Source: Prauserella alba
Lineage (GTDB): Bacteria > Actinomycetota > Actinomycetes > Mycobacteriales > Pseudonocardiaceae
Length of the DNA stretch: 64,000 nucleotides
Reading direction: 5' to 3'
Assembly: GCF_024171735.1 (NCBI RefSeq)
Contig: NZ_JAMTCH010000003.1
Location: 1 to 64,000 of the forward strand
Positions 16,464 to 45,512 of this stretch are shown here, in pieces (within the stretch, counting starts at the first letter, position 1; each line of letters opens with the position of its first letter). Position numbers and translations under genes: made by a program. Below the pieces are notes generated by a model. That model saw only the letters and a program-made list of their open reading frames with translations. It was not told the origin of the DNA and did no database searches.

Positions 16464-18545
16464 GTGGGAAGTGCGTCGTCGAACCGTCATCCGGAGCTGC
16501 TCGAGGGCCTCGACCCCGAACAACGCGCGGGCGCGTGCGCCCCGCGCGGACCCGTGTGCGTGCTCGCGGGCGCGGGCACCGGCAAGACCCGCACCATCAC
16601 TCACCGGATCGCCTACCTGGTGCGCTCCGGTCATGTCTCCGCAGGTCAGGTGCTCGCCGTCACCTTCACCTCCCGTGCGGCGGGGGAACTGCGCACACGC
16701 CTGCGCGGACTCGGCGTCGAAGCGGCGCAGGCCCGTACGTTCCACGCGGCGGCGCTGCGTCAGCTCCGCTACTTCTGGCCCCGCGTCGTCGGCGAACGCC
16801 AGTGGGACCTCATCGACGGCAACAAGCTCCGCCTCGTCGGCCAGGCGGCCAACCGGCTGGGCCTGCCGACCGAGATCGACGTGATCCGCGACCTCACGAG
16901 CGAGATCGAATGGGCGAAGTCCTCACTCGTCGGCCCCGACGACTACCCGGCCGTGGTCGCCAAGCTGAAGCGGGACACCCCGGAACCGGCCGAGCGGATC
17001 GCCGAGCTGTACCGGGGATACGAGCAGACCAAGAACGAAGCGCAGCTGCTGGACTTCGACGACCTGTTGCTGCACACCACGGCGGCGCTCGAGGAGCACA
17101 GAGCGGTGGCCGACGAGTTCCGTGAGCGGTACCGGTGTTTCGTCGTCGACGAGTACCAGGACGTCACACCCGCACAGCAGCGGCTGCTCGACGCGTGGCT
17201 CGGCGGCAGGGACGACCTGACCGTCGTCGGCGACGCCAACCAGACGATCTACTCGTTCGGGGGCGCCTCGCCGCGCCCGCTGCTGGAGTTCACCCGCCGG
17301 TTCCCCGACGCGACCGTCGTGCGTCTCGAACGGGACTACCGGTCGACGCCGCAGGTGGTGTCGCTGGCCAACCGCGTCATCGGGGCCGCGCGGGGCAGGC
17401 CGGCAGGATCGCGGCTCGAACTCGTCGGACAGCGCCCCGAGGGCCCGGAACCGCGCTTCGCCGAGTACGACGACGAACCCGCCGAGGCCGCCGCGGTCGC
17501 GGCGCGTATCCGTGCGCTGCTCGACGACGGGGTCGCCGCCAGCGAGGTCGCGGTGCTGTACCGCGTGAACGCCCAGTCGGAGGCGTACGAACAGGCGCTG
17601 TCCGAGGCGGGCGTGCCGTATCTGGTGCGCGGCGGCGAGCGGTTCTTTCAGCGGCAGGAGATCCGGCAGGCGATCGCGGCGCTGCGCACCGCGGCGGCCG
17701 ACGAGCCGCGCGGCGAACTCGTCGCGCTGTGCCGCCGGGTGCTCGCGCGCGTCGGGCTGACCGAACAACCGCCCGCAGGGGGCGCGGCGCGGGAACGGTG
17801 GGACGCGTTGCTGGCGCTCGTCGAAGTGGCCGAGGAGCTGGCGACCACGGTCGAGGGGGCGAGCCTCGGCAGGCTCGTCGGGGAACTCGAACAGCGCGCC
17901 TCCGCGCAGCACCCGCCGACGGTGGAAGGCGTCACCCTGGCCTCGTTGCATGCGGCCAAGGGCCTCGAATGGGACGCGGTGTTCCTCGTCGGTCTCGCCG
18001 ACGGCACCGTGCCGATCCAGCGCGCCGACGGTGACGACGAGGCCGTCGAGGAGGAGCGCAGGCTGTTCTACGTCGGCGTCACCCGTGCCCGTGAGCACCT
18101 GTCGCTGAGCTGGGCCCTTTCCCGCCACCCCGACGGCAGGCGCAATCGCCGCCGCAGCCGGTTCCTGTACGGCCTCGTGCCGGAGGACCACCCTGCGGCG
18201 CCCGTCGCGAAATCGGGTCAGCAGACGAAGTTCGCCAACTCGTGCCGCATCTGTGCGCGGCCGCTGATCTCGACGATGGAGGTCAAGCTCGGCCGGTGCA
18301 CCAAGTGCCCCGCCGACGTCGACGAACACCTGCTCGGACGGCTGAAGGACTGGCGGACCGAGCGCGCCCGGGAATTGAACGTGCCCGCGTTCGTGGTGTT
18401 CACCGATTCGACCCTCGTGGCGATCGCCGAGCAGCGGCCCACCGACAGCAAGGCGCTCGTCGGCATCTCCGGCATCGGCGCGTCCAAGCTCCAACAGTTC
18501 GGCGACGACGTGCTCGCCGTGGTGCGTGACGAGGCCGGCGGATAG
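16464..18545 (+). CDS. uvrD2: ATP-dependent DNA helicase UvrD2 (SF1, with tetracysteine and HRDC domains)
   Basis: A 693-residue superfamily 1A helicase. The Walker A motif LAGAGTGKT is near residue 30, the DEYQD Walker B motif near 230, and the helicase core ends around residue 570 with [13 protein letters not shown]. The C-terminal part carries a four-cysteine element (CRIC...CTKC, about residues 592-614) and then an HRDC domain. This layout is that of mycobacterial UvrD2, a 3'-5' helicase in DNA repair. GTG 16464 is favoured over ATG 16455 because GAGGAT lies seven bases upstream. As in mycobacteria, whiB7 follows, though here on the same strand. Confidence 0.95.
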
Positions 18546-18630: not shown

Positions 18631-18670
18631 GAAAAATCAGTTGCCCCGTCACGCGTGGTCGCAATAACCT
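18631..18670 (+). promoter_or_regulatory. whiB7 promoter with WhiB7-type AT-rich element
   Basis: GAAAAAT (18631-18637) lies just upstream of -35 TTGCCC (18641-18646); an 18-base spacer leads to -10 TAACCT (18665-18670). An AT-rich block directly before the -35 box is the known hallmark of promoters activated by WhiB7 with sigma A, so autoactivation is expected. Transcription would start near 18677, about 515 bases before the whiB7 ATG. Confidence 0.7.
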
Positions 18671-18739
18671 GCAGTGACCAGGTCGAAAAGCGCGGCCACC
18701 CAGGCGGTGGCCGACCGGATACGAGAGGAGGTGCCCGCA

Positions 18740-19078
18740 ATGGAGTTCACGACAACGATCGACATCGCCGGCATCTCCGGAGACCGGTCGACCCTGCGTT
18801 GTGACGGGCGGTCCGTGCGTCCTCAGCTGCTCTGCGCGTCGGTCGATCGTGACCGCCGGCCTGCCGGCATGTCCCTGGATCCGCGTGACCTCGCTGCGTT
18901 CGACGTGCGTGGGGGCGCCACGTCGCACGCTCCGGCCGGCGGCGCGGCGCTCGCCGCTGCCGACCTCGGCAACCCGGTGCCGCGCCCGGAGCGTCGTCAG
19001 CAGCTTCCGATCCAGATCCAGGACAAGTCCCGGGTTCCGCCCGGCTTTTGCGAGAGGCGTCGTCTAGCGACCGGCTAG
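18740..19078 (+). CDS. upstream ORF in the whiB7 leader (regulatory candidate)
   Basis: A 112-codon ORF beginning at ATG 18740 with a strong GAGGAGGTG ribosome site eight bases upstream. The peptide (starts MEFTTTIDIAGISG) has no recognised domain and becomes Arg/Gln/Pro-rich at the end. It fills most of the leader between the whiB7 promoter and whiB7. Upstream ORFs in whiB7 leaders are known to couple ribosome stalling to antitermination, and this one ends (TAG 19076-19078) inside a small hairpin and 14 bases before a 12-bp terminator-like stem. It is unusually long for such a leader ORF. It may be regulatory, a real small protein, or both. Confidence 0.55.
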   Translation: MEFTTTIDIAGISGDRSTLRCDGRSVRPQLLCASVDRDRRPAGMSLDPRDLAAFDVRGGATSHAPAGGAALAAADLGNPVPRPERRQQLPIQIQDKSRVPPGFCERRRLATG

Positions 19079-19080
19079 GC
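19062..19080 (+). promoter_or_regulatory. hairpin spanning the stop codon of the whiB7 leader ORF
   Basis: GTCTAGC (19062-19068) pairs with GCTAGGC (19074-19080) using one G-U pair, five-base loop. A ribosome finishing or stalling near the end of the leader ORF would melt it, which makes it a plausible part of an attenuation switch. Confidence 0.4.
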
Positions 19081-19091
19081 AGTTGGCTCTC

Positions 19092-19125
19092 GAAGGCCGC
19101 GGAACCCATCGGATCCGCGGCCTTC
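19092..19125 (+). terminator. whiB7 leader attenuator hairpin
   Basis: GAAGGCCGCGGA (19092-19103) and TCCGCGGCCTTC (19114-19125) form a perfect 12-bp stem with a ten-base loop. It lies 66 bases before the whiB7 start codon and after the upstream ORF. The U tract is weak (GTGCTGTTCG follows). Position and strength match the conditional terminator of whiB7 leaders. Confidence 0.65.
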
Positions 19126-19191
19126 GTGCTGTTCGAGGGCTGTGTGGATCCGCCGACTCATCCGCACACACTCGTTACTGAAGGAGCCGCC

Positions 19192-19551
19192 ATGCCAACG
19201 GCCACCGTCTCCGCGTCAGAGGAGACGTTCTCCGCCCTGTTGGCCGGGACGACCGGAGTCGCCGAACTGATCGACTCCGGAGAGTCAACCGATTTCGACC
19301 TTCCCTGTCGGACCGGCGATGCGGACCTGTGGTTCGCCGAGAAGCCGTCCGACCTGGAACGCGCCAAGACATTGTGCGGCGAGTGCCCGGTGCGCTCGGC
19401 CTGCTTGGAAGGTGCACTCGCCCGCGGTGAGCCGTGGGGCGTCTGGGGAGGCGAGATCTTCGAACGCGGTGCCGTCGTGGCCCGCAAGCGGCCGCGAGGC
19501 CGCCCGCGGAAGCACCCGGTGCCCGAATCTCGGGAACGGAGCGCCGCATGA
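19192..19551 (+). CDS. whiB7: WhiB7-type redox-sensing transcriptional activator of antibiotic resistance
   Basis: A 119-residue iron-sulfur regulator. The four cluster cysteines are C39, C62, C65 and C71 (CGECPVRSAC), the WhiB turn GVWGG is at 83-87, and the C-terminus has the AT-hook RGRPRK at 102-107 that distinguishes WhiB7 from other Wbl proteins. WhiB7 binds the primary sigma factor and AT-rich DNA upstream of -35 boxes and turns on intrinsic resistance genes when ribosomes are inhibited. ATG 19192 follows AAGGAG. The promoter has the AT-rich element for self-activation, and the leader carries an ORF and a terminator hairpin. Placement beside uvrD2 agrees with mycobacteria. Confidence 0.96.
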   Translation: MPTATVSASEETFSALLAGTTGVAELIDSGESTDFDLPCRTGDADLWFAEKPSDLERAKTLCGECPVRSACLEGALARGEPWGVWGGEIFERGAVVARKRPRGRPRKHPVPESRERSAA

Positions 19552-19646
19552 CGAACCGACTGCACCGCGAACCAGGCGAGACGCACTCGCTGACGGTGAC
19601 ATCGCGACACCACACATCCACCGAGTCGAACACGGAGACACCTCAC

Positions 19647-19799
19647 ATGTTGCTCCACGAAGAACTGACCAGAGATCGAATACGTGAACTGCGAAAACAG
19701 GCCGAGGGAGGGCGGGCCGAACGTCGGCACCGCGCGGCACGACGTTGGCAGCGAATCGCTCGCTGGGCATCGCGGCGTGCCGAGCACTTCGACCGGTAG
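19647..19799 (+). CDS. small basic conserved actinobacterial protein
   Basis: A 50-residue, strongly basic helical protein (MLLHEELTRDRIRELRKQAE start, then many Arg/Ala). Short proteins of this type are widespread in actinobacteria and uncharacterised. ATG 19647 has GGAGA eight bases upstream. A longer reading begins at ATG 19548, which overlaps the whiB7 stop codon as ATGA and would give 83 residues; the added part is low in conservation-like features. Either way it is likely translated from the whiB7 transcript. Confidence 0.6.
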   Translation: MLLHEELTRDRIRELRKQAEGGRAERRHRAARRWQRIARWASRRAEHFDR

Positions 19800-45135: not shown

Positions 45136-45506
45136 GGGGGTGAACGGTTTCGACTCTGGACGTTGATCCAGCGGGAAGCGTGCCGGTGCAGGCAACGACC
45201 ACCGAAAGCGTCGTCGCAACTAAATATAAGCGCCAAGACTAATAGTCAGCGCGACTTCGCCCTCGCCGCCTGAGCGAGTGCGAGTCTGTCGGCCCGGGTA
45301 AGCCTTCGACCCGGTTTGCCGGCATCAGCTAGAAGGCTCACCTCCGGCCCCGGCCACGGGGACCGGTAGGGAAACCAACAGTGGCTGGGCCCGTCACACC
45401 GGCTAGTTCGCGTGACCGGTGGGGCCGAGTAGAGACACAGCGAACTGCGCACGGAGAAGCCCTGGAGAGGCGGCAGAGGACCCGGGTTCGATTCCCGGCA
45501 CCTCCA
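45136..45506 (+). ncRNA. ssrA: transfer-messenger RNA (tmRNA)
   Basis: A 371-base tmRNA that rescues stalled ribosomes. The terminal stem pairs GGGGGTG (45136-45142) with CACCTCC (45499-45505), followed by the A73 discriminator; CCA is added. The tRNA-like D region TGAACGGTTTCGACTC and the T-arm GGGTTCGATTCCC are present. The tag frame resumes at GCC 45232 after TAAATATAAGC and reads AKTNSQRDFALAA to TGA at 45271, ending in the degron ALAA. A strong terminator follows seven bases after the 3' end. Confidence 0.97.
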
Positions 45507-45512
45507 CTCGCT

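Follow-up and report, generated by a model that had tools for sequence, protein, structure and literature searches.

The whiB7 leader of Prauserella alba as a likely ribosome-controlled transcription attenuator, with a proposed Shine-Dalgarno hairpin gate

The whiB7 locus and its leader

The stretch of DNA analyzed here, which we call the window, comprises 64,000 nt of the 5.6-Mb genome of the actinomycete Prauserella alba and contains whiB7 at positions 19192 to 19551 of the forward strand, on which the features of its leader and the upstream gene also lie. The 119-amino-acid product matches the Pfam family Whib (E value, 1.3e-15), and its gene is preceded by a Shine-Dalgarno (SD) sequence, GAAGGAG, at 19180 to 19186. 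The protein sequence reads RGRPRKHP, which resembles an AT hook, and GVWGGE, motifs that we take to point to WhiB7 identity. Its closest named relative is from Prauserella halophila (96%), and a search of 120 related genomes returned whiB7 as the top match every time; there was no NCBIfam equivalog match. A small ORF at 19548 to 19799 overlaps the whiB7 stop codon (ATGA) and ends in RRWQRIARWASRRAEHFDR. Starting from an ATG inside it, at 19648, the product would have about 50 residues, and Pfam and NCBIfam searches with this ORF were without a match.

The upstream neighbor encodes a UvrD-type helicase with an HRDC domain, found by family search at 16500 to 18545, where 16500 is the edge of the searched stretch and 18545 is the end of the ORF, 5' of a WhiB7-type promoter. 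This promoter (18632 to 18670) consists of AAAAAT (18632 to 18637), a -35 element TTGCCC (18641 to 18646) and, after an 18-nt spacer, a -10 element TAACCT (18665 to 18670), from which transcription would start near 18677. A hairpin with the arms GGCCACC/GGTGGCC follows in the minimum free energy fold of the 5' untranslated region (18694 to 18712). The SD core GGAGGTG (18727 to 18733) then lies six bases 5' of the ATG of an upstream ORF (uORF) that runs for 112 codons, from 18740 to a TAG at 19076 to 19078. An earlier note on this DNA had read a WhiB7-like promoter and a strong ribosome site from the letters alone, and both are borne out by the sequence.

An Rfam search gave no match in the leader above the gathering score, and a generic scan called neither a promoter nor a terminator in it, because the -35 and -10 elements depart from the E. 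coli type and the terminator stem is followed by a T-poor tail (GTGCTGTTC). We compared the leader with its counterparts in other genomes. The whiB7 loci came from the 120 related genomes, 80 named genome loci and single stretches; the 198 loci comprised 186 distinct leaders, of which 185 had a candidate uORF. Under a strict uORF rule (an SD of 6 or more bases at 4 to 9 nt, at least 40 codons, and a stop 40 to 330 nt before whiB7), 143 of the 185 leaders passed in a first coding and 145 in a slightly different second coding. Thinning of the 143 left 123 leaders, and the 121 of these with a stem of at least 10 pairs form the set for the 121-leader statistics below. From other orders and families we took 69 further loci (29 automatic and 40 hand-chosen, a subset of the genomes found), of which 6 were skipped because their genomes had already been used; 55 of the remaining 63 passed. 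Four alignments, A1 to A4, cover parts of the leader set, with 25, 34, 38 and 21 leaders, respectively. As a background of ordinary genes we used 62 SD-led ORFs at first, some of them probably spurious, and then a stricter set of 42.

Both the promoter and the uORF exceed chance by a wide margin. The promoter motif (AT-run, TTG and TANNNT) was present in 120 of 121 leaders, including that of the window, whereas base-shuffled sets averaged 0.32; the conserved promoter thus lies upstream of the stem, which speaks against a whiB7 transcript that begins downstream of it. The strict uORF rule, satisfied by 145 of 185 real leaders, let through 4 of 185 after shuffling and 6 of 185 after reverse complementation. 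The frame is intact in all seven same-genus genomes, at 104 to 113 codons. Across the 121 leaders the uORF spans 45 to 122 codons (median, 81), with 8 leaders at 112 or more, so that a uORF of 112 codons, which the earlier note had placed beyond typical leader ORFs, is long but ordinary for whiB7. In the 55 leaders of other families and orders the range is 43 to 172 codons, although the longest may reflect wrong starts. No amino-acid-specific codon run is conserved in the listed uORF peptides; the composition in the window includes 14.3% Arg and 12.5% Ala.

Terminator, anti-terminator and stop-codon hairpin

Between the uORF and whiB7 lies a stem resembling an intrinsic terminator, with 12 perfect pairs (19092 to 19103 with 19114 to 19125) around a loop at 19104 to 19113, as the earlier note had also recognized. 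The folding energy of this region is -34.1 kcal/mol (z -4.28), and none of 200 shuffles was as stable. The stem is conserved: pairing in its 12-pair helix reaches 95.4% in a set of 38 leaders, and seven of the pairs never vary. A hairpin was reported in all 123 leaders; that of L193 is short and far off and was discounted, which leaves a terminator in 122 of 123.

The T tract after this stem is poor in the window and, with the negative generic scan, would fit an account in which Rho or another factor, rather than an intrinsic terminator, ends the leader transcripts. We regard this as very unlikely, given that the GGCCGCGGA terminator 5' arm is invariant in 38 of 38 leaders of alignment A3 and that many relatives have T-rich tails.

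The same 5' arm has a second predicted partner. The last uORF codons contain an anti-terminator 5' arm (GGGUUCCGC, GGCUUU and CGAGAG; 19032 to 19056) that would pair with CUCUCG-AAGGCC-GCGGAACCC at 19087 to 19107, so that the terminator and anti-terminator compete for 19092 to 19103. When 19030 to 19107 was folded with the terminator 3' arm omitted, the anti-terminator reached -47.5 (z -4.16; 0 of 200 shuffles). Across leaders, the best partner of the terminator 5' side is the stretch of roughly the last twelve uORF codons, with a mean peak of -15.9 kcal/mol within a leader's own sequence versus -13.1 kcal/mol with that of other leaders. A swap test of the two arms over the 121 leaders gave a double-centered residual of -3.38 kcal/mol (sd 0.27; 0 of 5000 permutations), compared with -0.23 (693 of 5000) for a control segment. 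Column by column, two-sided changes fill 27 cells of the anti-terminator, compared with 17.3 after shuffling (2 of 500), and the covariation score is 0.137 against 0.116 (1 of 500), while one slid register (-3) gives 31 two-sided cells.

A small hairpin (19062 to 19068 with 19074 to 19080) holds the uORF stop codon within its 3' arm, and the claim that the 112-codon ORF ends inside such a hairpin therefore stands. Taken alone, the window's stop-codon hairpin is not unusually stable (z -0.73); over the 121 leaders, each leader's own arms pair better than swapped ones (-2.96, sd 0.22; 0 of 5000). The spacing between stop codon and stem varies little (median, 23 nt; quartiles, 20 to 26), for uORFs that range from 45 to 122 codons. 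In the window it is 12 to 13 nt, because the uORF stop in this genus lies 3 to 4 codons further downstream than in Amycolatopsis; a ribosome at the stop codon would therefore leave part of the anti-terminator 5' arm uncovered.

Pairing of the uORF Shine-Dalgarno region

At its other end, the uORF is predicted to pair with its own SD region. The SD and the bases after it (GGAGGUGCC; 18727 to 18735) form the 5' arm of a hairpin whose 3' arm (GGCAUCUCC; 18770 to 18778) lies in codons 11 to 13; the start codon is inside the loop, and two extra pairs (18737 and 18738 with 18767 and 18768) extend the helix. In the window the SD region in a wider piece is more stable than all 200 shuffles (z -3.41), and a minimal 74-nt piece with the hairpin is matched by 14 of 200 (z -1.54).

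Across leaders, the SD region pairs with codons about 9 to 14. In the 123 leaders the pairing energy with a leader's own SD has a sharp peak at +27 to +40 (-13.9 own versus -11.5 swapped) and is weakest over the first 25 nt of the uORF; in 42 ordinary genes the profile is flat near -9. In swap tests, a leader's own SD-hairpin arms fit better than arms taken from different leaders, by -2.49 (sd 0.23; 0 of 5000 permutations), and by -3.38 (sd 0.61; 0 of 5000) with one leader from each of 20 groups. The region at +71 to +106 had a small effect (-0.54; 33 of 5000), and the 42 ordinary genes showed no such effect (+0.25, sd 0.43). The spacer between the SD and the start codon is not fixed by ribosome binding, yet it carries the same signal on its own (z -9.5; z -5.2 for 30 leaders, one from each group), against a control at +71 to +94 with z -2.3 over all leaders and 0.3 when each group supplied a single one. 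In the 55 leaders from other orders the pairing recurs slightly further downstream and more broadly, at +33 to +56 (z -6.2; control z -0.5). The predicted arms of the SD hairpin thus change together between clades, also in other actinomycete orders. The best SD-pairing arm lies outside codons 9 to 14 in several leaders (for example, L017, L090, L065 and L108).

Could this pairing be a functionless by-product of GC-rich sequence and a conserved peptide motif? The helix is nearly invariant within clades, and a column-wise test found no excess covariation. Overall SD exposure is also close to that of other genes, at 0.30 in the leaders versus 0.36 in ordinary genes (p 0.045; an earlier and cruder comparison with the 62 SD-led ORFs gave p 0.084). 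Against this stand the swap tests between clades at 0 of 5000, including that of the spacer outside the SD core, the lack of a residual in the 42 ordinary genes and the flat control at +71 to +94 with one leader per group. The probability of pairing per SD base is likewise 0.53 in leaders versus 0.20 in the 42 ordinary genes, and it exceeds 0.5 in 77 of 123 leaders versus 7 of 42. We consider a by-product quite unlikely.

A stronger rival is that the hairpin is used for timing: it would pause RNA polymerase until the first ribosome arrives and so synchronize the race between them, rather than limit initiation. Classical pause hairpins have loops shorter than the roughly 34 nt found here, and this long loop argues against such a role. 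Pausing would, however, conserve the SD pairing just as well, and the hairpin would be complete about 40 to 45 nt past the start codon, when the polymerase is only slightly ahead. In the passages available to us, drug-inducible leaders of B. subtilis are timed by pausing (PMC9226507). We judge this the main rival to a hairpin that restricts ribosome loading, though on balance unlikely.

Two neighboring structures fared differently in the swap tests. An outer extension of the SD hairpin (CGACCGG at 18712 to 18718 with CCGGTCG at 18784 to 18790) is present in the window fold and has a counterpart by eye in Amycolatopsis (GGACAG/CTGTCC); with z 0.1 for one leader per group and -3.0 for the full set, it was rejected as a general feature and appears clade-specific at best. 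The 5' untranslated hairpin at 18694 to 18712, tested at fixed offsets, gave no signal when each group was represented by a single leader (z 0.3; full set z -2.3), and changed pairs are seen by eye in genus members.

The uORF peptide and a model of whiB7 control

The length of the uORF had led the earlier note to suggest that the peptide itself might act. Such a peptide, working in trans as a protein or as a drug-dependent arrest peptide, would depend on its sequence, and several features invite the idea: the ORF is long and has a strong SD, its frame is kept in the seven same-genus genomes, and its ends are conserved. Over 20 close pairs, however, the middle of the uORF has a summed dN/dS of 0.74 versus 0.07 for whiB7, which we used as the yardstick from the same genomes because the Nei-Gojobori method overstates dN/dS in GC-rich DNA. 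The same pairs gave 0.54 for codons 9 to 20, 0.73 for the last 16 codons and 1.87, from few sites, for the first 8. Pfam and NCBIfam searches with the peptide found no family match.

The conserved ends, moreover, coincide with pairing RNA, the 3' end with the anti-terminator arm and the 5' end with the partner of the SD. At a conserved N-terminal PG motif, Pro is encoded by CCT in 20 of 33 cases versus 90 of 747 Pro codons elsewhere, as expected if RNA rather than peptide is conserved there. In L006 and L007, leaders from the genus of the window, a compensatory change from C-G to U-A at 18734:18771 preserves the base pair and replaces Gly with Asp in the peptide. An acting peptide thus seems highly improbable, and on the lack of a family match and the near-neutral change we rejected it. 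The best explanation appears to be that selection maintains a translated frame and that the peptide as such is without function. A second motif, RRxTGMRW-like with GGC/GGT ATG, occurs at uORF codons about 23 to 36 in Amycolatopsis and relatives (L069, L046, L060, L008, L016 and others), outside the RNA arms explained above.

In mycobacteria and other actinomycetes, WhiB7 is a main switch of intrinsic drug resistance. In the published passages available, whiB7 leaders of relatives combine a uORF, an intrinsic terminator and an anti-terminator made from uORF and terminator sequence, and they are induced by translation inhibitors or amino acid shortage (PMC10727445, PMC13393426, PMC4128351, PMC11550727, PMC13236596). 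A 2025 paper, in the part available, states that drug stalling of ribosomes within the whiB7 uORF is untested (PMC12121999). The Prauserella leader belongs to this known whiB7/wblC uORF attenuator of mycobacteria and Streptomyces, with which it shares the far-upstream promoter, the SD-led uORF, the terminator, the anti-terminator and whiB7 downstream. It differs in its own peptide sequence and in a stop codon a few codons further downstream than that of most relatives, 12 to 13 nt before the stem. It differs also in the SD hairpin, which the published passages covered here do not mention; we provisionally regard it as an addition to the known leader.

Ribosome position also selects between terminator and anti-terminator in attenuators of the trp/ilv type (such as ilvB in mycobacteria and corynebacteria), but these sense tRNAs through a regulatory codon run, of which the whiB7 uORF has no conserved example, and leader ORFs of the trpL type are short, so that the whiB7 uORF is several times longer. 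In Firmicutes, translation inhibitors turn on resistance genes through leader ORFs as well, but the ORFs of tlrB and erm are very short and have defined stall codons. The same difference from the window holds for vmlR, as far as the cited passages go (PMC9226507).

The most probable reading, to which we assign a probability of about 0.88, is a ribosome-controlled transcription attenuator of whiB7 that probably includes a gate at the SD hairpin. Comparison of the leaders supports the predicted promoter, uORF, terminator, anti-terminator and SD pairing, and leader-ORF attenuation, as the earlier note had envisaged, matches the published mechanism; conditional termination and induction by drugs are carried over from the literature on relatives. 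Transcription would begin at the WhiB7-type promoter, and a ribosome would load on the uORF during its synthesis. If it follows closely behind the polymerase and reaches the last 14 or so codons and the stop, it would cover or open the anti-terminator arm at 19032 to 19056, the terminator (19092 to 19125) would fold, and transcription would stop before whiB7. If the ribosome is stalled or slowed anywhere in the 112 codons, or is not loaded, that arm would pair with 19087 to 19107 and block the terminator; whiB7 would be made, and WhiB7 would activate its own promoter.

The RNA arms at both ends, the frame and the stop-to-stem distance are conserved, and the peptide and its length are not, which favors a sensor that reads translation speed irrespective of sequence. 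Because any codon can stall, the uORF may serve as a speed test blind to sequence. A slower ribosome would lag behind the polymerase in proportion to ORF length, and a 339-nt ORF should therefore detect smaller slow-downs than one of 150 nt. The SD hairpin would probably confine loading to the pioneer ribosome, shortly after the SD has left the polymerase, and whiB7 would then be switched on by poor initiation as well. That the pairing of the SD with codons about 9 to 14 forms a previously undescribed first gate in actinomycete whiB7 leaders, admitting only the pioneer ribosome and thus measuring both initiation and elongation, is a tentative proposal to which we give somewhat less than even odds. 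If true, this gate would help to account for the response of a single leader to almost all classes of translation inhibitor; the SD hairpin is a specific, testable part of the leader.

Elsewhere in the window, Rfam places a tmRNA gene at 45136 to 45509, and the end of a 23S rRNA together with a 5S rRNA occupies positions 1 to 341.
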